Of a stretch of DNA of 64,000 nucleotides, positions 46,232 through 53,172 are shown piece after piece; position 1 is the first letter of the stretch, and each line of letters opens with the position of its first letter. The notes below the pieces were generated by a model. That model ran no database searches, had not been told where the DNA came from, and saw nothing but the letters and a program-made list of their open reading frames with translations. The translations under genes were made by a program, and so were the position numbers. The stretch is from Sphingobacterium paucimobilis HER1398 (GTDB lineage: Bacteria; Bacteroidota; Bacteroidia; Sphingobacteriales; Sphingobacteriaceae). The stretch covers positions 62,001 to 126,000 of the forward strand of contig NZ_ATDL01000012.1 of assembly GCF_000416985.1 (NCBI RefSeq), written 5' to 3'.

Positions 46232-47242
46232 CTATTTCTTAACAGGTGTAAACTGATCGGTGATATATAGATTGATATTATCAATAAAAACTCGATTACC
46301 AGACTCTTCCTGCTGATCTCCCGTCATAAACTGCAACTGTATTGTGGATGCTGTAGGGTTGAGATTGGGCTTCTTCACGACAAATTCAAACTGGGAACCT
46401 TCCCACATCGTACTTAACAATAAAGCAGATTGATAGTCATAATAGGCCAGTGTGACAACTTTACTAGTCTCCCCGTTTTCGAATTCCGCACCCACCAATT
46501 TAACAGTAAGCTTGTCTTTATCCTTTAGTCCTGCTTTAGAAATATATCCAACAGCATCAAAGGTCAATAGCAATAAACTATCTTTTTCTAAACCAGGATA
46601 TATTGGTGATGATAAATTGACGCCTTGATCGGCAGCCCCCAACAGCATATAACCATTCATCCCCAGCGTAGATGCTGTATTTGAACTGGTCCAGCCGATT
46701 TGCTTCTGTGTTGCAGTCCATTGGGCCATAGGAGTAGCTTTACTCAGGTCCAGAGGTGACCCCGAACCATATTTAAGCCAAGCAAAATTTTCCTCCACAC
46801 GCATATTATACCCTTGGTTCAAGCGAATGAATACACCAGAATAGGTATCATCATTATTGAGATTGAGCACACCGACACGTTTTTTATAGATCTTTTCCAT
46901 TGGTAACACGTCCAAAATAACACGCGACTTGTTTGTTCCGGCAATAGCCTCTATCTTATCGACCTTCACCCAGTTATTCACCTCATTGGTTTCAAAGGAA
47001 AGCTTTAATGGAGAATTACTCGCTACGTATATCGTATCCAATCCTCCCTCCGCTGTCCATTTCAATTGACCAACTTTTTCTTCGAATCCTTCTGTCTCGG
47101 ATACTTGTATTCCATCCACAAGCTCCCCTTTCTCATTGTTTTTATCACAAGAAGAAAACGTACAAACCATACCGATAAAAACACATAACGGCACAAAAGG
47201 CATGCGTTTTGATCCAGTTCTTTTTAAAATAATTGATTTCAT
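46232..47242 (-). CDS. BACON-like surface lipoprotein upstream of the third sigma gene
   Basis: About 336 residues from the ATG at 47242. The longer frame starts on top of a -7 element at 47302-47309, so it is unlikely. Lipobox CTFSSC. An N-terminal BACON-like domain (LKWTAEGGLDTIYVASNSPLKLSFETNE, GVFIRLNQGYNM) is followed by a jelly-roll-like C-terminal domain (TLGMNGYMLLGAADQGVNLSS, RVFIDNINLYI). It resembles the C-terminal parts of the DUF5689 proteins of the same locus in layout. Probably a surface binding protein of the third locus; the ligand is unknown. Confidence 0.78.
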   Translation of the reverse strand: MKSIILKRTGSKRMPFVPLCVFIGMVCTFSSCDKNNEKGELVDGIQVSETEGFEEKVGQLKWTAEGGLDTIYVASNSPLKLSFETNEVNNWVKVDKIEAIAGTNKSRVILDVLPMEKIYKKRVGVLNLNNDDTYSGVFIRLNQGYNMRVEENFAWLKYGSGSPLDLSKATPMAQWTATQKQIGWTSSNTASTLGMNGYMLLGAADQGVNLSSPIYPGLEKDSLLLLTFDAVGYISKAGLKDKDKLTVKLVGAEFENGETSKVVTLAYYDYQSALLLSTMWEGSQFEFVVKKPNLNPTASTIQLQFMTGDQQEESGNRVFIDNINLYITDQFTPVKK

Positions 47243-47301
47243 ATTTTTCGCTAATTTTCTGTCGAGTGGACCGCCCCAGTAGTCAGAAATTAGTAAAAAC
47301 A

Positions 47302-47309
47302 CAAAATTA
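47302..47309 (-). promoter_or_regulatory. -7 element for the BACON-like lipoprotein gene
   Basis: CAAAATTA on the plus strand reads TAATTTTG on the minus strand, a perfect TAnnTTTG, 60 bp before the ATG at 47242. It supports the shorter start. No -33 element is evident. Confidence 0.5.
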
Positions 47310-47329
47310 TCCTTTTTAATCGATGCTTA

Positions 47330-47361
47330 AGTTAAGTTAATATGAATTTTTCAACTTAACT
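47330..47361 (-). terminator. Weak hairpin after the 47.5-48.0 kb gene
   Basis: AGTTAAGTT (47330-47338) pairs with AACTTAACT (47353-47361) with a 14-nt loop. AT-rich and without a good T-run on the minus strand, so only a possible terminator. Confidence 0.35.
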
Positions 47362-47498
47362 CCTAAAGCTTTTAACATGTAATACGTGATGTTACAAGGT
47401 CTAATTTGATTACTTACTATCTATTGGAATCTAAAATAACACTTTATCCCAAAACTAACAAATAAAGTTTTTGCTCCAATTTTTCTATTCCATAAGTC

Positions 47499-47990
47499 TT
47501 AAGAGTCGGAGTACGCTTGCAGATCGCTTTTCACCATGATATGAAAGCGAAATTGGTTACCTAGCTCTAGAATTTTGTGCTTGATTATTTCCCTACTATC
47601 ATTATCATGTAACTGCTTATCAAGATAGGCAAGACACTCCAAGATGGGTTGAGAGAGCGTAGAATTGATTGCTTTTGCCTCTATAAATTGATCAATAGGA
47701 AACGACTCCTCATCACCTATCAAAAGCTGAGCACCTCCTGATGCAGAAGGGAATAACCGATAACAAGTCAAGTAGATACCCAAGAGCAAGGGGGTGGAGC
47801 GTTCTTCCACTTCATAAATATGACCATGTTCCTGTTGACACAAATAAAATGCCCGCTCTAGGTCACCGAAGCTTTCATTTTGATGGGTCAACAGGTCGCA
47901 TACTCTCTTCGTCTTTATGATGGAATTGGTAATAGCTTCCTCTTTGAAAAGGAAAGTAATGTTTGAATCGAAGAATATGCTCATGGTCAT
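47499..47990 (-). CDS. Protein of unknown function with a TTACGG-N4-CCGTAA operator
   Basis: A 163-residue protein, predicted soluble and mainly helical, with no signal peptide (MSIFFDSNITFLFKEEAITN at the start; an ATG two codons downstream is equally possible). I do not recognise the family. It is preceded by a perfect -7 element and a palindrome that also precedes the gene at 51197. The two genes flank the TPR-kinase/response-regulator/peptide cluster and point outwards. It is therefore a likely target of that two-component system (inference). Confidence 0.72.
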   Translation of the reverse strand: MTMSIFFDSNITFLFKEEAITNSIIKTKRVCDLLTHQNESFGDLERAFYLCQQEHGHIYEVEERSTPLLLGIYLTCYRLFPSASGGAQLLIGDEESFPIDQFIEAKAINSTLSQPILECLAYLDKQLHDNDSREIIKHKILELGNQFRFHIMVKSDLQAYSDS

Positions 47991-48058
47991 CCTGCTGTGT
48001 TTGCGTGTAAGCCGTGCTTTCTAAAATACGAATGTACTATACAGCCTGATTACGCTGA

Positions 48059-48103
48059 CAAAAGTAAACAGAAGAATAAACCAAAATTTACGGGAAACCG
48101 TAA
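48059..48103 (-). promoter_or_regulatory. Promoter with TTACGG-N4-CCGTAA operator (copy 1)
   Basis: Read on the minus strand: TTACGGTTTCCCGTAA, then ATTTTG, then the -7 element TACTTTTG (plus positions 48059-48066). The gap between palindrome (48088-48103) and -7 element is 21 bp, so the palindrome covers the -33 position where an activator would sit. The same layout with a 20-bp gap occurs upstream of the gene at 51197. Confidence 0.65.
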
Positions 48104-48157
48104 AACCATTTTTTTATTTCTAGTGGTAGAAAAAAACGGGGCAAAAGGAGCAAAACG

Positions 48158-48823
48158 CTAAATCAAACCGATATCTTTACAGTAAGCCACTAACTGTTCA
48201 TTTTTAGAAAATCCCAGTAGCTCCTTCATCAAACCCAAACGTTTCTCAATACTGCTCAATCCTGAAGGCTTTATATCGCGCTCTTGGAGGTAGTGTGGAA
48301 TATTTTTCTGCAATATCCCTTCGGCGAGTAGCGATACAATATTGACATCCAAAGTACTGAAATCATGCGAATTTCTATTCCGTATGGCCTGCTTTATATC
48401 TGGAGACTGATAGTTACGGCCATCGGACAACGCATGCAACGCTTCTTTCAAATGCTGTGCATCTCTCCTAGCTTTGCGCACATACCCATTTATGCCATAC
48501 CGATTGAACAGTTCCTCGATAACACTGCTGCGATTCTCCGCAGAAAATACAATAATCTTAATATCAGGCTGTACTTTTTTTACTTCTTTGATCAACTCTA
48601 CTCCTCCTCCAATACGCTGTTCGTTATAATCAGCTTCGAAGGACAGATCCGTGATCAATAGATCATAAGGTTCATCATCACGTAGTGCATTGCGCACCCA
48701 ACTCAAGGCATCGTCACAATAGTAGACATATTTAGTATCTATTATTCCTACTTCATGAAGTGTTTTTTGAACCGAAATATTCGCTATTTCGTGGTCTTCT
48801 GCAATTAGTACTTTTTTAAACAT
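48158..48823 (-). CDS. Response regulator, receiver + LuxR-like HTH
   Basis: A 221-residue response regulator. Receiver: acidic pair AEDHE near residue 10, phosphoacceptor D59 in LLITDLSFEAD, Ser/Thr and Lys positions in VFSAENR and GYVRKARRD. The C-terminal part (about 155-215) is a divergent LuxR/FixJ-type helix-turn-helix (LDVNIVSLLAEGILQKNIPHYLQER, PSGLSSIEKRLGLMKELL). It starts 13 bp after the stop of the TPR kinase gene. It probably binds the palindrome found at 48088-48103 and 51149-51164 (inference). Confidence 0.92.
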   Translation of the reverse strand: MFKKVLIAEDHEIANISVQKTLHEVGIIDTKYVYYCDDALSWVRNALRDDEPYDLLITDLSFEADYNEQRIGGGVELIKEVKKVQPDIKIIVFSAENRSSVIEELFNRYGINGYVRKARRDAQHLKEALHALSDGRNYQSPDIKQAIRNRNSHDFSTLDVNIVSLLAEGILQKNIPHYLQERDIKPSGLSSIEKRLGLMKELLGFSKNEQLVAYCKDIGLI

Positions 48824-48836
48824 AATGATTGCTATT

Positions 48837-50543
48837 TCAAAGGATCGGAATCGATATATACACTTTCAGTCCCTCCCCTCGCTCACTCACAAATTTAATG
48901 CTGCCATTTATATTTTCCATACGGGTTCCCGTATTATTCAACCCATTCCCTTTTGAAAAGTTTTCGGACAAACCTACTCCATTATCATTATAAAAGACAT
49001 TTAAAGCACCTTCTAAGCGATCAAAGCGCAATACCACACGATCCGCCCCACTATGCTTACGCATATTAACCATAAGCTCTTGCAATGTGTGCTCCAGTTC
49101 ATTTTTGATATTTTGAGGAATCGCCGCCCAAAGTTCAGCTTCATTACCGGCCATAATGACTTGACGGCTTTCGTTTGCGTAAGAACGTAACATCTCACCT
49201 AAGGACTCATGATATGGCGTTTCGTTTGCTGTTGCCACCTCTTCTACCTCGTACGAAATATCCCTCGACTTTTCGTACATGCTTTCCAATCGATCCAAAA
49301 TCCCTTCTCTATCGATGTCTTCCCTATTTTCAATCTCTGTCATTACCCGATACAACCCATTGGCCACCACATCGTGCACCTTTCTTGATGTTTTGAGCTG
49401 ACTGGCTTTTATTTTGTTATTAGCTTCCAAAAGAAGACGCTGCTTACGCCGCTTGTACCAAAAGAGACTAAAGACAGTAATCAATGCAAATACAACTATG
49501 ATGGACCAAGTCAATAGATGCTGCATATTAATTCTGTACAATTTGTCATTAACTTCATTCTGGAGTTTTAGGTTATCCGCTTTATTTTTTTCAACTTCAT
49601 ACCGAATTAAAGCAAACTGATTTTTTGCATTAGATCGCACAAGCTGTATACTGTCCGATAGCTCTCCATAGGCTTTAAAATAATCCTTAGATACCTTTTC
49701 GGGACTAAGCGTTATTAATTTCTTGAAGGCATCCAGGCGATCATCTACACTATTTATTTCTATTGCAATTTTATTCCTCTCCTGTGCATAGAACAATGCG
49801 GAATCCGAATCCAAGCCCTCATAATACAACGCAAGATAAGCGTAGCTTGAATTTATTCCCCACCTATCATCTAGACGCCTACGAATCGCTAATGCTTCTT
49901 TCAAATCCGATAAGGCATCATAGTCTGGGTCAAGTTTCGTTCGTTGGAAAGCATAATTCGTTAAAGACCGAGCATATTCTTTTTGATCTTTATTCTCACT
50001 GTGCAGTATATCTTCATATATTTCTAAAGCCTCCTGCTCCTTTCCGATCATTGATAAGGCTCTAGCTTTGTTATTCAAGAATACTTTAGTATTCATTGTA
50101 TCCGTTGAATAATGAATCGCCATATCGTAAAACTCAATAGCTCTTTCGTAATCTTTCAGCTCTCCAGTAACGTTACCGAGATTGTTATAATTGGTACTTA
50201 AATATACTTTATGTTTTACTTTGCTCGTATCCAGATAGGTTCCTGCTTCCAAAGACAATTCTTGTGACGTAAGATAATCGCCAACATCTCGGACCGTAAT
50301 AGCCATTTGAATCAAACAATTAGCAGTATTGAGACTATCATGGGCCTCCGAAGCCAAATTTTTTATTTGTTCAAACTCAGCAAAGGCGCTATCTAATTTG
50401 CCTTTGTCCAAATAGGCAAAAGCATGTTCATAGTAACTTCTGAGGTCTAGCTTTACATCATCGGGAATCTTTTTCTTCTTTGCTGTACAGGCTAGAAAGA
50501 CAATAAAAACCAAAAATAATTTCGTAATCCTCAAAACATTCAA
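48837..50543 (-). CDS. TPR-containing lipoprotein histidine kinase (HisKA_3 type)
   Basis: A 568-residue sensor kinase. The lipoprotein-like signal has Cys19 (VFLACTAKKKK). About five TPR repeats lie outside the membrane (residues 35-290), then a coiled coil and one TM segment (TWSIIVVFALITVFSLFWY, 345-363). The HisKA_3-like dimerisation region carries His390 (SRKVHDVVANGLYRVM), and the HATPase domain has the N box (LQELMVNMRKHS), DNGVG and GNGLNNTGTRMENINGS. All catalytic motifs are intact. The start codon is TTG at 50541-50543, right after an in-frame TAA. TPR sensor domains of this type are thought to bind peptides; a 60-residue exported peptide gene lies just upstream. Confidence 0.93.
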   Translation of the reverse strand: MNVLRITKLFLVFIVFLACTAKKKKIPDDVKLDLRSYYEHAFAYLDKGKLDSAFAEFEQIKNLASEAHDSLNTANCLIQMAITVRDVGDYLTSQELSLEAGTYLDTSKVKHKVYLSTNYNNLGNVTGELKDYERAIEFYDMAIHYSTDTMNTKVFLNNKARALSMIGKEQEALEIYEDILHSENKDQKEYARSLTNYAFQRTKLDPDYDALSDLKEALAIRRRLDDRWGINSSYAYLALYYEGLDSDSALFYAQERNKIAIEINSVDDRLDAFKKLITLSPEKVSKDYFKAYGELSDSIQLVRSNAKNQFALIRYEVEKNKADNLKLQNEVNDKLYRINMQHLLTWSIIVVFALITVFSLFWYKRRKQRLLLEANNKIKASQLKTSRKVHDVVANGLYRVMTEIENREDIDREGILDRLESMYEKSRDISYEVEEVATANETPYHESLGEMLRSYANESRQVIMAGNEAELWAAIPQNIKNELEHTLQELMVNMRKHSGADRVVLRFDRLEGALNVFYNDNGVGLSENFSKGNGLNNTGTRMENINGSIKFVSERGEGLKVYISIPIL

Positions 50544-50570
50544 TTATGCCCTGAATCTACGAAAAAGTAA

Positions 50571-50601
50571 AATATAAGACGGTATAGAACCGTCTTATAT
50601 T
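50571..50601 (-). terminator. Terminator of the exported-peptide gene
   Basis: AATATAAGACGGT (50571-50583) and ACCGTCTTATATT (50589-50601) form a perfect 13-bp stem with an ATAGA loop, right after the stop codon of the 60-residue gene and 28 bp before the kinase start. Kinase expression may therefore depend on read-through. Confidence 0.8.
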
Positions 50602-50602
50602 T

Positions 50603-50785
50603 TTAGGCTGTACGTTTTAGGGGTAACATTCTAGGGATCGGTGGACGTACAGTACCAGTATCACCACCTTTTGGATCTTCTTTTTTCTTTTTTACAATGA
50701 TATTTTCTACAGGTTCACTTGTTTTAACAGTTGAATGTAACGACAAGGTACTTGCCATAAATAATGCAATAATTAAATGCCACAT
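50603..50785 (-). CDS. Small exported peptide (60 residues) upstream of the TPR kinase
   Basis: The frame encodes a signal peptide (MWHLIIALFMASTLSLHS) followed by a short mature part with a tetra-lysine (NIIVKKKKEDPKGGDTG) and a Pro/Arg-rich tail (TVRPPIPRMLPLKRTA). The tail recalls the start of DUF3244-type small exported proteins of Bacteroidota (GxxxVRPPR), but the stop and a strong terminator follow at once, so it is complete as it stands. It has a long structured 5' leader. Its position beside a TPR sensor kinase suggests a signal or accessory peptide (inference). No experimentally known family is recognised. Confidence 0.62.
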   Translation of the reverse strand: MWHLIIALFMASTLSLHSTVKTSEPVENIIVKKKKEDPKGGDTGTVRPPIPRMLPLKRTA

Positions 50786-51148
50786 AGGTCAAAAAATTTA
50801 AAAGTCTAAAAACAGGTAGGTCCAGTGCTTCATGCACGAGATTGCTACAGTTGTCTTCAGAAGGCCTTCTGAATTTTTTGGGAAGTGGGACATATAGTGC
50901 GGAAGACAAAACTGCTTCCCAAACCGGTTTATATTTTCCGCCCTATATGTTTTCGAGAATCAACAGGGGCAAGTCAAAACTAGTATCAACTTGCCATTAG
51001 CGCTGATTCACGAAGCAAACATAATTACCACAACAATCTAAAAATCAAACAATTCCACTATTTCCAATACTTCTTTGGATATTCCTATATAACCATTGAT
51101 TTTCCGAAAATTCCAATCAAATGCGGCGCACGAGAAAAACAACAGCAG
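50786..51148 (-). promoter_or_regulatory. Structured leader region of the exported-peptide gene
   Basis: No gene is seen here. On the minus strand a perfect -7 element TAGTTTTG lies at 50975-50982, giving a leader of roughly 180 nt. Within it two long complementary pairs are interleaved. 50877-50885 pairs with 50915-50923 (TTTGGGAAG/CTTCCCAAA, 9 bp perfect). 50890-50904 pairs with 50936-50950 (14 of 15). A perfect 18-bp palindrome lies at 50856-50873, followed on the plus strand by TTTTTT. The two long stems cannot easily coexist, so a switch is possible. Confidence 0.5.
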
Positions 51149-51192
51149 TTACGGTTTTCCGTAAATTCTGATAAACGAGGACATTAACTTTG
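51149..51192 (+). promoter_or_regulatory. Promoter with TTACGG-N4-CCGTAA operator (copy 2)
   Basis: TTACGGTTTTCCGTAA (51149-51164) is followed by ATTCTG, and 20 bp after the palindrome by the perfect -7 element TAACTTTG (51185-51192), 4 bp before the ATG at 51197. There is no -33 TTG. The layout repeats that at 48059-48103, suggesting a common activator. Confidence 0.68.
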
Positions 51193-51196
51193 TTAT

Positions 51197-51733
51197 ATGT
51201 TTGAGCTATTTAAAGAAGCAGTGAGGTCTGCTTATCTAACGAAGAAAAAGAATGGAGAGCTTCCCTACGATGAACTGGAGAAGCCATCACCTGGTGATTT
51301 ACGAAACCTATTTCTCTTGCTAATGGCACAGGGATTGTCCCAGCACGATCAAGAGACGCTTTTACGTTTCTTTATGTATAATGGTGAGTATGCTGAGTTA
51401 GACACACACATACGTAAGTATGATTTGGATAAATTTAGGCCACTCAGAAATTATATTCTCGGAATTACTTCTAACCCGTCCGAGGACGTCGTTAAAATGT
51501 TGGCTATATTAATAGATTTCCAACCCCGACCTTATCGTCAATGGCGAGAGGGATATTTAGCGAAAAGCACCGTACAAACGGAAAAGAAGGAAAACAAAAA
51601 CAGACTGCAACAAAACCTGCCATCAAAACCTCTTACCAGAAGCTCCAATATTTCTGTTCGAAATGGTCTCAAACTATTGGTGTCATTGGGCATATTATCA
51701 ACCGTAGCAGCTGTATTTATTGCTAAAGATTAA
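51197..51733 (+). CDS. Protein of unknown function with C-terminal TM segment, possibly truncated by a stop
   Basis: A 178-residue protein. The helical N-terminal part (FKEAVRSAYLTKKKNGELPYDELEKPSPGDLRNLFLLLMAQ) is followed by a basic linker and one TM segment near the C-terminus (NGLKLLVSLGILSTVAAVFIA). I do not recognise the family. The stop TAA at 51731-51733 is followed by 47 further in-frame sense codons to a second TAA at 51875-51877, just before a terminator. The gene may thus once have encoded about 226 residues with a C-terminal domain beyond the membrane. It has the operator shared with the 47.5-48 kb gene. Confidence 0.75.
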   Translation: MFELFKEAVRSAYLTKKKNGELPYDELEKPSPGDLRNLFLLLMAQGLSQHDQETLLRFFMYNGEYAELDTHIRKYDLDKFRPLRNYILGITSNPSEDVVKMLAILIDFQPRPYRQWREGYLAKSTVQTEKKENKNRLQQNLPSKPLTRSSNISVRNGLKLLVSLGILSTVAAVFIAKD

Positions 51734-51877
51734 GACCTATTTATAAAAGACAATACGCTGATAATACCGGAAGAAAACTTCGTTACTAGTGTATCTCCTC
51801 ATGGTCCTAAGGCGGGTCTGTTGTCGCTATTTAGATCTCATGGCCAAAACTGGCTTTATAGACTCAACGACAAATAA
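51734..51877 (+). pseudogene. In-frame extension beyond the stop codon of the preceding gene
   Basis: Forty-seven codons continue in the frame of the preceding gene after its TAA, reading DLFIKDNTLIIPEENF, then PHGPKAGLLSLFRSHG and finally QNWLYRLNDK. They end 3 bp before a terminator stem, and there is no other gene up to it. The composition is protein-like. It is either the detached end of a gene broken by a nonsense mutation or a chance open frame. Confidence 0.4.
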
Positions 51878-51880
51878 AAA

Positions 51881-51900
51881 AGCCATCTATCAAGATGGCT
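51881..51900. terminator. Bidirectional terminator
   Basis: AGCCATCT (51881-51888) and AGATGGCT (51893-51900) with an ATCA loop, flanked by AAAAAA and TTCCTATTT, between convergent genes. Confidence 0.8.
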
Positions 51901-51930
51901 TTCCTATTTAGAACACTAATTATAAATGGC

Positions 51931-53172
51931 TTAGATATGATCCAAGACCACTAAACTCTTCTTAATGACTTCGACAGCTTCCAAAAGCTGTTTTTCAGAA
52001 ATAACCAATGGCGGAGCAAATCTAATTTTATCGCCATGAGTCGGTTTTGCCAATAGCCCATTTTTCATCAACTCGATACAGAGGTGCTGAGCCGCATCCG
52101 GATTACTATGGTTAATGACCAACGCATTTAAAAGTCCCTTGCCCCGTACCTCTTGGATATATTTGTGGTTTAGTTTCTCAAGTTCAGTTCTGAATAACTC
52201 TCCCAACAGCTGAGACTTATTGGCCAAATCTTCATTTTTCAGAACATCCAATGCCGCAATAGCGACCGCACAGGCCAACGGATTTCCACCATAGGTAGAC
52301 CCATGTTCGCCTGCCTTGATACAAAGCATAATCGCATCATCCGCAAGTACTGCAGAGATCGGTAATACACCACCGCTTAACGCTTTGCCCAAAATCAAGA
52401 TATCTGCCCGAACCCCTTCGTGATCACAAGCCAACATCTTTCCAGTACGCGCCAATCCTGTTTGGATTTCGTCCGCTATAAACAATACATTATTATCTTT
52501 ACAAATCTTATAACTAGACGACAGGTATCCAGCATCAGGTACGTATACACCAGCTTCGCCCTGAATTGGCTCAACCAACATAGCGACAACATTTGGATCT
52601 TTTACCGCCTCCTCCAAAGCCTTCAAGTCATTGTACGGAATCGTCACATAACCAGAGACAAATGGGCCAAATCCTCCTTTTGCAGTATCGTCTGTACTAA
52701 AGGAAATAACATTGATCGTACGTCCGTGAAAGTTTCCTTCTACGGTAATAATTTTAGCCTGATTTTCCGAGACGCCTTTTACTTCATATCCCCATTTACG
52801 AGCTAATTTTAATGCAGTCTCGACAGCCTCCACTCCAGTATTCATTGGCAACACCTTATCGTAGCCAAAATAGGCCGTGATATATTCCGTGTATCCCGCC
52901 ATCTTATCACTGTGAAACGCACGCGAAGTCAATGTCAACTGTTGCGCCTGCTCTGTTAGGGCTTTAATAATATCTGGATGACAATGTCCTTGATTTACTG
53001 CTGAATATCCAGACAGGAAATCAAAATATTCCTTTCCTTCTACGTCCCATACTTTGGCTCCCAGTCCCTTGGACAACACCACAGGCAACGGATGATAGTT
53101 ATGCGCACCGTGTTTTTCTTCGACCTCAATATAAGAAGCTGTCTTTTCCGGAATTTGATAATTGTGATACAT
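51931..53172 (-). CDS. rocD: Ornithine--oxo-acid aminotransferase
   Basis: A 413-residue class-III PLP aminotransferase. Ornithine-aminotransferase blocks are seen throughout: [113 protein letters not shown] and [20 protein letters not shown] with the PLP Lys. It converts ornithine and 2-oxoglutarate to glutamate semialdehyde and glutamate in arginine/ornithine catabolism. It is a single-gene unit. The length fits the family. Confidence 0.96.

Follow-up and report, generated by a model that had tools for sequence, protein, structure and literature searches.

Why does the same palindrome, at almost the same distance from a promoter element, flank both ends of a gene cluster for a tetratricopeptide repeat (TPR) histidine kinase, a response regulator and a small peptide? 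We analyzed this question in a 64,000-nucleotide (nt) stretch of the Sphingobacterium paucimobilis HER1398 genome (contig NZ_ATDL01000012.1, positions 62,001 to 126,000; hereafter the window, whose coordinates start at its first letter). A previous sequence-only reading described the cluster and its two flanking operator-promoter modules as a small regulon. Our comparison suggests that the window contains one copy of a larger signalling cassette conserved in Bacteroidota, extending beyond this cluster. From an operator, a gene here called O2 is transcribed in one direction; next to this operator lie a GGAA array and a promoter, from which a leader, the peptide gene, a terminator, the kinase gene, the regulator gene, another operator and a variable set of genes follow in the opposite direction. 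Thus the cluster and its flanking modules stand as parts of the unit, while the leader, the GGAA array, the terminator, a leaderless target and the wider spread had been overlooked. We consider it probable that the whole is best explained as a cassette in which the phosphorylated regulator would work as a class-II activator and the peptide would act on the TPR sensor.

Operator and promoter geometry

Re-reading of the sequence located both palindromes where they had been claimed, and these two are indeed the sole exact copies in the window. On the plus strand, TTACGGTTTTCCGTAA (51149–51164; exact match) precedes O2, a membrane-protein gene, and is followed by ATTCTG and then by the −7 element TAACTTTG (51185–51192), which lies 20 bp from the palindrome and 4 nt 5' of the O2 ATG. 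On the minus strand, TTACGGTTTCCCGTAA (48088–48103; exact match) precedes the gene O1 for 163 amino acids (aa) and is followed by ATTTTG and, at a gap of 21 bp, by TACTTTTG (48059–48066), which matches in both sequence and pattern. The distances of 20 and 21 bp between palindrome and TAnnTTTG given by the sequence-only reading were therefore both correct. Its ATTyTG element is present at both window copies but is not a general feature among relatives, many of which carry ATTCCG before the membrane-protein gene, and elsewhere the sequence varies. When two mismatches were allowed, the window gave 4 palindrome matches vs 1.78 expected, which is the chance level, so that the loose palindrome carries no signal there.

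The exact palindrome TTACGG-N4-CCGTAA is rare in the whole genome: 5 copies were found in 5.1 Mb (22 contigs), without any scatter, and none was found for the reversed control. Among 93 genomes of the genus, 236 copies were detected vs 24 for the reversed control, and the palindrome accompanied by TAnnTTTG at 17–25 bp (the module) was present in 60 of the 93, with 0 matches for the control; the same module search over 399 genomes of the family (these 93 and 306 others) gave 2 control matches. The spacing among 115 distinct sites with flanks was 21 bp in 92, 20 bp in 18, 22 bp in 3, and 18 bp and 15 bp in one each, hence 20–21 bp in 110 of 115; most of these stretches were picked via the 17–25 bp pattern search, and that range is the frame of the distribution. 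Outside the family, the module was found in 6 of 248 sampled genomes of the class, within two other families, and all 13 sites there showed exactly 21 bp although 17–25 bp was permitted. The counts in the genome and the genus relative to the control, together with the clustering of the spacing, exclude a chance origin of the module.

In Flavobacterium johnsoniae, the −7 element extends from −12 to −5 (PMC6847099). Counted in this way, a palindrome at 21 bp is predicted from the −7 element to cover about −49 to −34 with its centre at −41.5, leaving no room for a −33 element of its own. Class-II activators of the CRP type sit near −41.5, where they overlap the −35/−33 region.

The module accompanies the response regulator

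Among the 399 family genomes, the regulator (E <= 1e-30, with at most 7 candidates scored per genome) was found in 193 and the module in 181: 167 genomes have both, 26 the regulator only, 14 the module only and 192 neither (Fisher 2e-65, kinship not removed). Both are present in the same 11 of the 25 genera of the family. In the genus, genomes with the regulator carry 3.31 palindromes each (n=64) vs 0.83 in those without it (n=29), and in one genome (G001) the regulator gene has an internal stop codon and the module is absent. The two are also neighbours: in stretches of ~10 kb centred on the regulator, a palindrome with a −7 element at 19–23 bp was seen in 60 of 80, that is, within about 5 kb of the orthologue. 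The leader, the kinase and the regulator extend to Chryseobacterium and Filimonas; the module lies downstream of the regulator in 9/9 Chryseobacterium loci found, and at the single Filimonas locus the exact palindrome was not found. Because the copies are not scattered, lie beside orthologues and occur together with the regulator over 399 genomes, the earlier proposal of a regulator-controlled, activator-type promoter is the best reading, and the link between regulator and operator is likely. Genomes with the module only (e.g. G062, and locus L171) may hold a diverged regulator or a remnant regulon.

The regulator gene (48158–48823, minus strand) encodes a receiver domain (PF00072, E 1.1e-10) and a NarL/LuxR-type helix-turn-helix (HTH), and D59 and K117 are invariant in 30 orthologues. 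Its structure model has a predicted local distance difference test score (pLDDT) of 91, and helices at residues 157–217 form a C-terminal four-helix HTH. The best match in the PDB is RcsB (E 4.8e-13, 23% identity), and the model aligns in full length with RcsB, LiaR, VraR and DesR. The protein is not RcsB itself: the NCBIfam equivalog PRK10840 scored 55.6 bits vs a cut-off of 235. The kinase gene (48837–50543, minus strand) matches TPR_12 (2e-16) and HATPase_c (25.0 bits, just below the cut-off of 26.4), and its product shows a lipoprotein-like N-terminal signal, the TPR region, one internal transmembrane (TM) helix at about 338–365 and the HATPase domain, with a His box, KVHDVVANGLY, recognized in the sequence at 390. 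The TPR region is N-terminal to the internal TM helix and predicted to be periplasmic. Domain and sequence evidence agrees with the identities originally assigned to the kinase and the LuxR-like regulator. At one locus (L072; G054:C1:2637000-2652000), three tandem kinase genes of this family are followed by one regulator gene.

A structured leader RNA precedes the peptide gene

A leader of about 165 nt (model R1; 50792–50954, minus strand) lies directly before the peptide gene and would fold into a helix P1, a central hairpin, a helix P3 and a U-rich tail. The central hairpin, TTCAGAAGGCCTTCTGAA in the window (50856–50873, minus strand), varies in other genera with its pairing kept (TAAGAAGCGCTTCTTA, TCAGAGGGCCCTCTGA). 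We aligned 39 of 43 leaders (alignment A1; 38 from the genus and one from another genus), excluding two that were read in antisense as well as L082 and L092, which had diverged, and placing the window's own copy by its coordinates. All 14 drawn P1 pairs and 7 of 8 inner P3 pairs showed changes on both sides. In total, 22 pairs were changed on both sides vs 13.4 +- 1.7 in shuffled and 10–15 in slid alignments, and 85 cells carried double changes vs 32 +- 4 shuffled and 17–29 slid. The outer P1 pairs are unformed in most rows (64% of P1 cells are paired), and the longer P1 is formed in the window and its nearest kin. The central core is invariant in A1 because the rows had been selected by the exact core. 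In a cross-genus alignment (A2; 21 rows fitted to the model, of which the L279 row is an antisense match), double changes were found in 27 of 33 pairs and in 111 cells, vs 17.4 and 44 when shuffled, and 5 of the 7 pairs of the central hairpin had changed on both sides. These compensated changes speak against the central hairpin being an invariant DNA site. GGGAAG (20 of 20 cross-genus leaders) and CTTCCC (19 of 20) could possibly form a pseudoknot with P1.

With the stricter filters used for the RNA search across genomes, the leader model matched 180 of the 399 family genomes, again in 11 of 25 genera, as a single copy except in 8 genomes, which have two. Matches were also obtained in 9 Chryseobacterium (E 2.6e-13 to 2.9e-7) and in Filimonas (2.1e-9); of 257 genomes sampled across the class, two were positive, HER1398 and one of another family. 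The leader starts 2060–2218 bp before the regulator in all 20 cross-genus loci. Of the 80 regulator-centred loci, 23 were searched with the model; here the start lies at 2046–2242 bp in 20 and at 2821–3173 bp in the other three, which rules out a constant distance of 2.1 kb. Shorter matches (115–130 nt) far from the regulator at G021:C15, G036:C1 and G059:C1 may mean that the RNA is used in a second context; G031 has its match on the opposite side of the regulator.

The leader resembles a riboswitch in that it is conserved, covaries and lies upstream of one gene class. Rfam 15 (4227 models) at E <= 5 gave five weak matches in 47000–52000 of the window, none of them over the leader; at the gathering thresholds, the 11 loci scanned out of the 20 cross-genus ones yielded a tRNA only, and at E <= 1, three Chryseobacterium loci and one Filimonas locus yielded no match. 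Two described RNA motifs, Flavo-1 and Pedo-repair, carry Rfam numbers according to PMC2864571, so the Rfam scans should have covered them. We thus regard the leader as a candidate structured RNA without an Rfam match.

Peptide, terminator and operon promoter

The peptide gene (50603–50785, minus strand) encodes 60 aa with a hydrophobic N-terminus and GGDTG..RPPIP towards the C-terminus. Behind the leaders found, we gathered 57 distinct peptides of 43–71 aa starting within about 10 nt of the leader end, by requiring an ATG, 30–95 aa and a hydrophobic start. The hydrophobic start common to the family is thus partly a product of the selection, whereas the C-terminal motif was not selected: a GG[DEQ]-type motif towards the C-terminus is present in 46 of 57, and 45 of 57 have at least three prolines among the last 14 residues. 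The middle is unconstrained, and two Chryseobacterium peptides end in GETGQILPPKK. The peptide may be exported or anchored in the membrane.

Between the peptide and kinase genes there is a hairpin with a 14-bp stem and a T run (50570–50602, minus strand), resembling an intrinsic terminator. Such a hairpin occurs within 230 nt after 40 of the 57 peptide genes vs 13 of 400 random windows. A terminator after the peptide gene implies that a short leader-peptide transcript would be common and that the kinase and the regulator would be expressed by read-through.

Upstream of the leader, the −7 element TATGTTTG (51016–51023, minus strand) with a TTTG at 51046–51049 that fits a −33 element marks the putative promoter of the leader and operon. 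Between this promoter and the O2 operator lies the GGAA array (51050–51120, minus strand), which is less regular in the window than in the genus. In 32 loci we counted 198 GGAA vs 21.5 in single-letter shuffles, and 17 TTCC. The distances are mostly 9, 11, 18, 20, 29, 31, 38 and 40, an alternation of 9 and 11 bp corresponding to about two helical turns, and in many relatives the CGGAA of the O2 palindrome is in step with the array. It is likely that the same regulator binds direct repeats in the array and inverted repeats at its targets.

Gene order of the cassette

We examined the order in 40 genus regions around regulators, some genomes contributing a second copy. Usually O2 comes first, and leader, peptide, kinase and regulator run divergently from it; O2 was present in 33 of the 40. 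The genes behind the palindrome that follows the regulator vary between species. Ten other genera supplied twenty regions, in which the kinase, the regulator, the leader and a peptide open reading frame were present in 20/20 and O2 in 19/20.

Predicted target genes

O2 (51197–51733, plus strand) encodes an orphan single-pass membrane protein of 178 aa with a conserved N-terminal helical domain, a variable linker and one TM helix. A C-terminal part (consensus CMCW...VWYSKINNEVEFFT) is present in 19 of 27 aligned members, of 288–447 aa, and is missing from the proteins of HER1398 and its nearest relatives (178–192 aa). A Pfam scan of the 27 members gave no coherent match: each matching model was hit by a single member, with a best E of 0.001, and was either low-complexity-like or unrelated. 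The structure model was poor overall (pLDDT 63), and its comparison with the PDB at E <= 0.001 found nothing. In 28 of 28 O2 genes with the module (27 of them read in sequence), the ATG follows TAnnTTTG by 4–5 nt, which predicts a leaderless mRNA beginning at the ATG or no more than a few bases from it. In Flavobacterium psychrophilum, just 5.5% of mRNAs are leaderless (PMC9723704). O1 (47499–47990, minus strand) has no Pfam or NCBIfam match; its relatives stand behind the same module at 5 other loci, one of them as a 58-aa fragment.

The sequence-only reading expected a small regulon with an unknown output. The genome has seven predicted promoters, the sites extend beyond one cluster and some outputs fall in named families. 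A search with three mismatches gave 18 matches vs 4 for the control, so we used the six sites with 0–1 mismatch and the 20-bp O2 site only. Besides O1 and O2, the targets are predicted at five further sites on contigs C14 and C21. The site at C14:5414 precedes a lipocalin-like lipoprotein gene, and that at C14:39447 lies about 280 nt before a 194-aa gene resembling an extracytoplasmic function (ECF) sigma factor. The site at C21:7297 (one mismatch) precedes genes for a membrane protein, a KAP NTPase (PADLOC PDC-S49, 2.2e-68) and a Drt3a-type reverse transcriptase (Drt3a, 7.7e-106); in this operon (C21:3113-7206, locus L007) the membrane protein has 295 aa, and the mismatch of the site is in the −7 element. 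The site at C21:7542 precedes a gene for a 144-aa, probably secreted protein and then a Schlafen AlbA_2 gene, and that at C21:25180 a gene for a 186-aa lipoprotein-like protein with a Cys-rich end.

In relatives, the operator precedes genes of the PLD, SNase, DUF4236, HsdR-N, DUF805/GYF_2, DUF4407 and DUF3892 families, and in single cases Cas6, GmrSD, DUF6119 and an HNH-like gene below the Pfam cut-off; many targets resemble lipoproteins or membrane proteins. The Cas6 gene (L140; G003:C35) is preceded, at about 130 nt, by a module whose spacing is 20 bp. We compared operator-driven genes (190, reduced to 135 by removing 29 O2 genes and near-duplicates; minimum 60 aa) with 104 random control genes, all kept (minimum 80 aa). 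At 1e-10, PADLOC models matched about 15 of the 135 when counted by family name (25 if each model matched a different gene) and about 8 of the 104 controls, a rough count among the best 25 of 38 families. Pfam nucleases among the 135 were PLDc_2 (7), SNase (6) and HSDR_N (6), all absent from the 25 control families listed, which run in order of count down to 1; these numbers are inflated by relatives because the set was thinned only at 80% identity.

Proposed mechanism

The cassette is real and widespread, a variant of the two-component system with a new candidate structured RNA. Comparison shows the motif with its geometry and its link to the regulator, the helices of the RNA, the family of peptides, the terminator and the order of the genes; from these we infer the binding partners, the direction of control, the signal and the roles of peptide and RNA as follows. 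The GGAA-array promoter would transcribe the leader and the small exported or membrane-anchored peptide up to the terminator, and read-through would yield the TPR kinase and the NarL/LuxR-type regulator. A dimer of the phosphorylated regulator would bind TTACGG-N4-CCGTAA, and the bound palindrome, centred at −41.5, would stand in for the −33 element as a class-II activator site. Its targets would be the divergent O2, with an mRNA starting from the ATG, and gene sets that vary between lineages. The peptide would most likely act on the periplasmic TPR domain as a ligand or a brake, the leader RNA would set the expression of the peptide and the kinase, and the array may provide feedback via the same regulator. 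A stronger version can be put forward only tentatively and is rather doubtful: a short, terminated, riboswitch-like transcript would encode an exported micropeptide, whose conserved GG[DE]xG..PP tail would be read by the periplasmic TPR kinase; the kinase would switch leaderless and accessory promoters via a rigid operator-promoter code in several Bacteroidota families.

Several observations weigh against this mechanism. Of the genus loci with O2, only 21 of 33 carry the exact palindrome ahead of this gene, as do 4 of the 19 from other genera. Among 41 genus loci, counting the window, a palindrome follows the regulator at a distance of up to 2 kb in 24, and the leader core is at the expected place in 32. 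As noted above, 26 of the 399 genomes hold the regulator but lack the module in its exact geometry, and 14 show the converse, no regulator orthologue being found at E <= 1e-30. The Pfam LuxR/GerE HTH model did not match the regulator, whose fold was matched. By the criterion used, the terminator is missing in 17 of 57 cases. Export or anchoring of the peptide is suggested by hydrophobicity only, and many peptides have no basic residue near the start. The strands of the putative pseudoknot show no covariation.

Relation to known systems

The regulator has the receiver and the four-helix HTH in common with RcsB, LiaR/VraR and DesR of the NarL/LuxR family; RcsB-type systems differ from the cassette in partner kinase, operator and leader. 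RRNPP / Rap-Phr systems sense re-imported peptides in the Gram-positive cytoplasm. They likewise pair a TPR sensor with a neighbouring gene for a small exported peptide; PMC3601957 treats this kind of signalling. In the cassette, however, the TPR region is predicted to be periplasmic and is fused to a histidine kinase. We therefore rejected the kinase as an RRNPP peptide receptor: its TPR region precedes an internal TM helix, by predicted topology, and is joined to a kinase, rather than being a cytoplasmic TPR protein with an HTH or phosphatase function. MgrB, which meets the sensor domain of PhoQ, has about 50 aa and one hydrophobic stretch, and the cassette peptide is predicted to be alike; the latter differs in sequence, in its Pro-rich C-terminus and in being encoded within the kinase operon behind a structured leader. 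The Downstream-peptide / glnA RNA motifs are listed in PMC2864571. Their ligand is glutamine. In these motifs, too, a conserved structured leader stands right before a very small conserved reading frame; they belong to another phylum, and the cassette leader has no Rfam match. Class-II CRP-type promoters have the site centre near −41.5 over the −35/−33 region, as predicted for the cassette, which differs by using a Bacteroidota sigma-A promoter with TAnnTTTG and the site 20–21 bp away.

Titles and abstract openings among the literature matches listed, a coverage that mostly excludes subscription journals, contained no description of the cassette. In this two-component system of Bacteroidota the promoter code is readable, and sequence is therefore enough to list candidate regulons. 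Two additions stand before one kinase: a covarying RNA leader, which matched no Rfam 15 family at the loci tested, and a family of orphan micropeptides. The system also opens a direct test of a periplasmic peptide-TPR pairing in Gram-negative bacteria.

Alternative explanations

Could the cassette be a dedicated anti-phage defence regulon? We think this unlikely. The KAP NTPase and Drt3a genes behind C21:7297 and the PLD, SNase, HsdR-N, GmrSD, Cas6 and HNH-like genes behind the operators of relatives would fit it, but many targets are lipoprotein- or membrane-protein-like, and the roughly counted PADLOC matches show no clear excess of operator-driven over random genes. It is also quite unlikely that the regulator is a repressor that covers the −33 element and blocks polymerase. 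The palindrome does overlap the −33 region, but there is no room for the TTTG −33 element that a repressed promoter would be expected to retain, and the spacing seems to be locked to one helical face, as for a contact with sigma or polymerase. Activation appears to be the better reading.

We hold it very unlikely that another transcription factor, merely travelling with the cassette, binds the palindrome. The 14 module-only genomes would agree with such a factor, but module occurrence follows the regulator across 11 genera, and the recurring genes in the compared regions are O2, the peptide, the kinase and the regulator, no search for another shared regulator having been made elsewhere in the genomes. 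Least probable of all is that the leader has no regulatory role as RNA, the helices being incidental and a further regulator binding both the array and the central palindrome as DNA. Such DNA sites would account for a palindrome core identical in 32 of 33 genus loci with like sequence, but across genera the central hairpin differs with its pairing kept (TCAGAAGGCCTTCTGA, TAAGAAGCGCTTCTTA, TCAGAGGGCCCTCTGA), and P1 and P3 covary.

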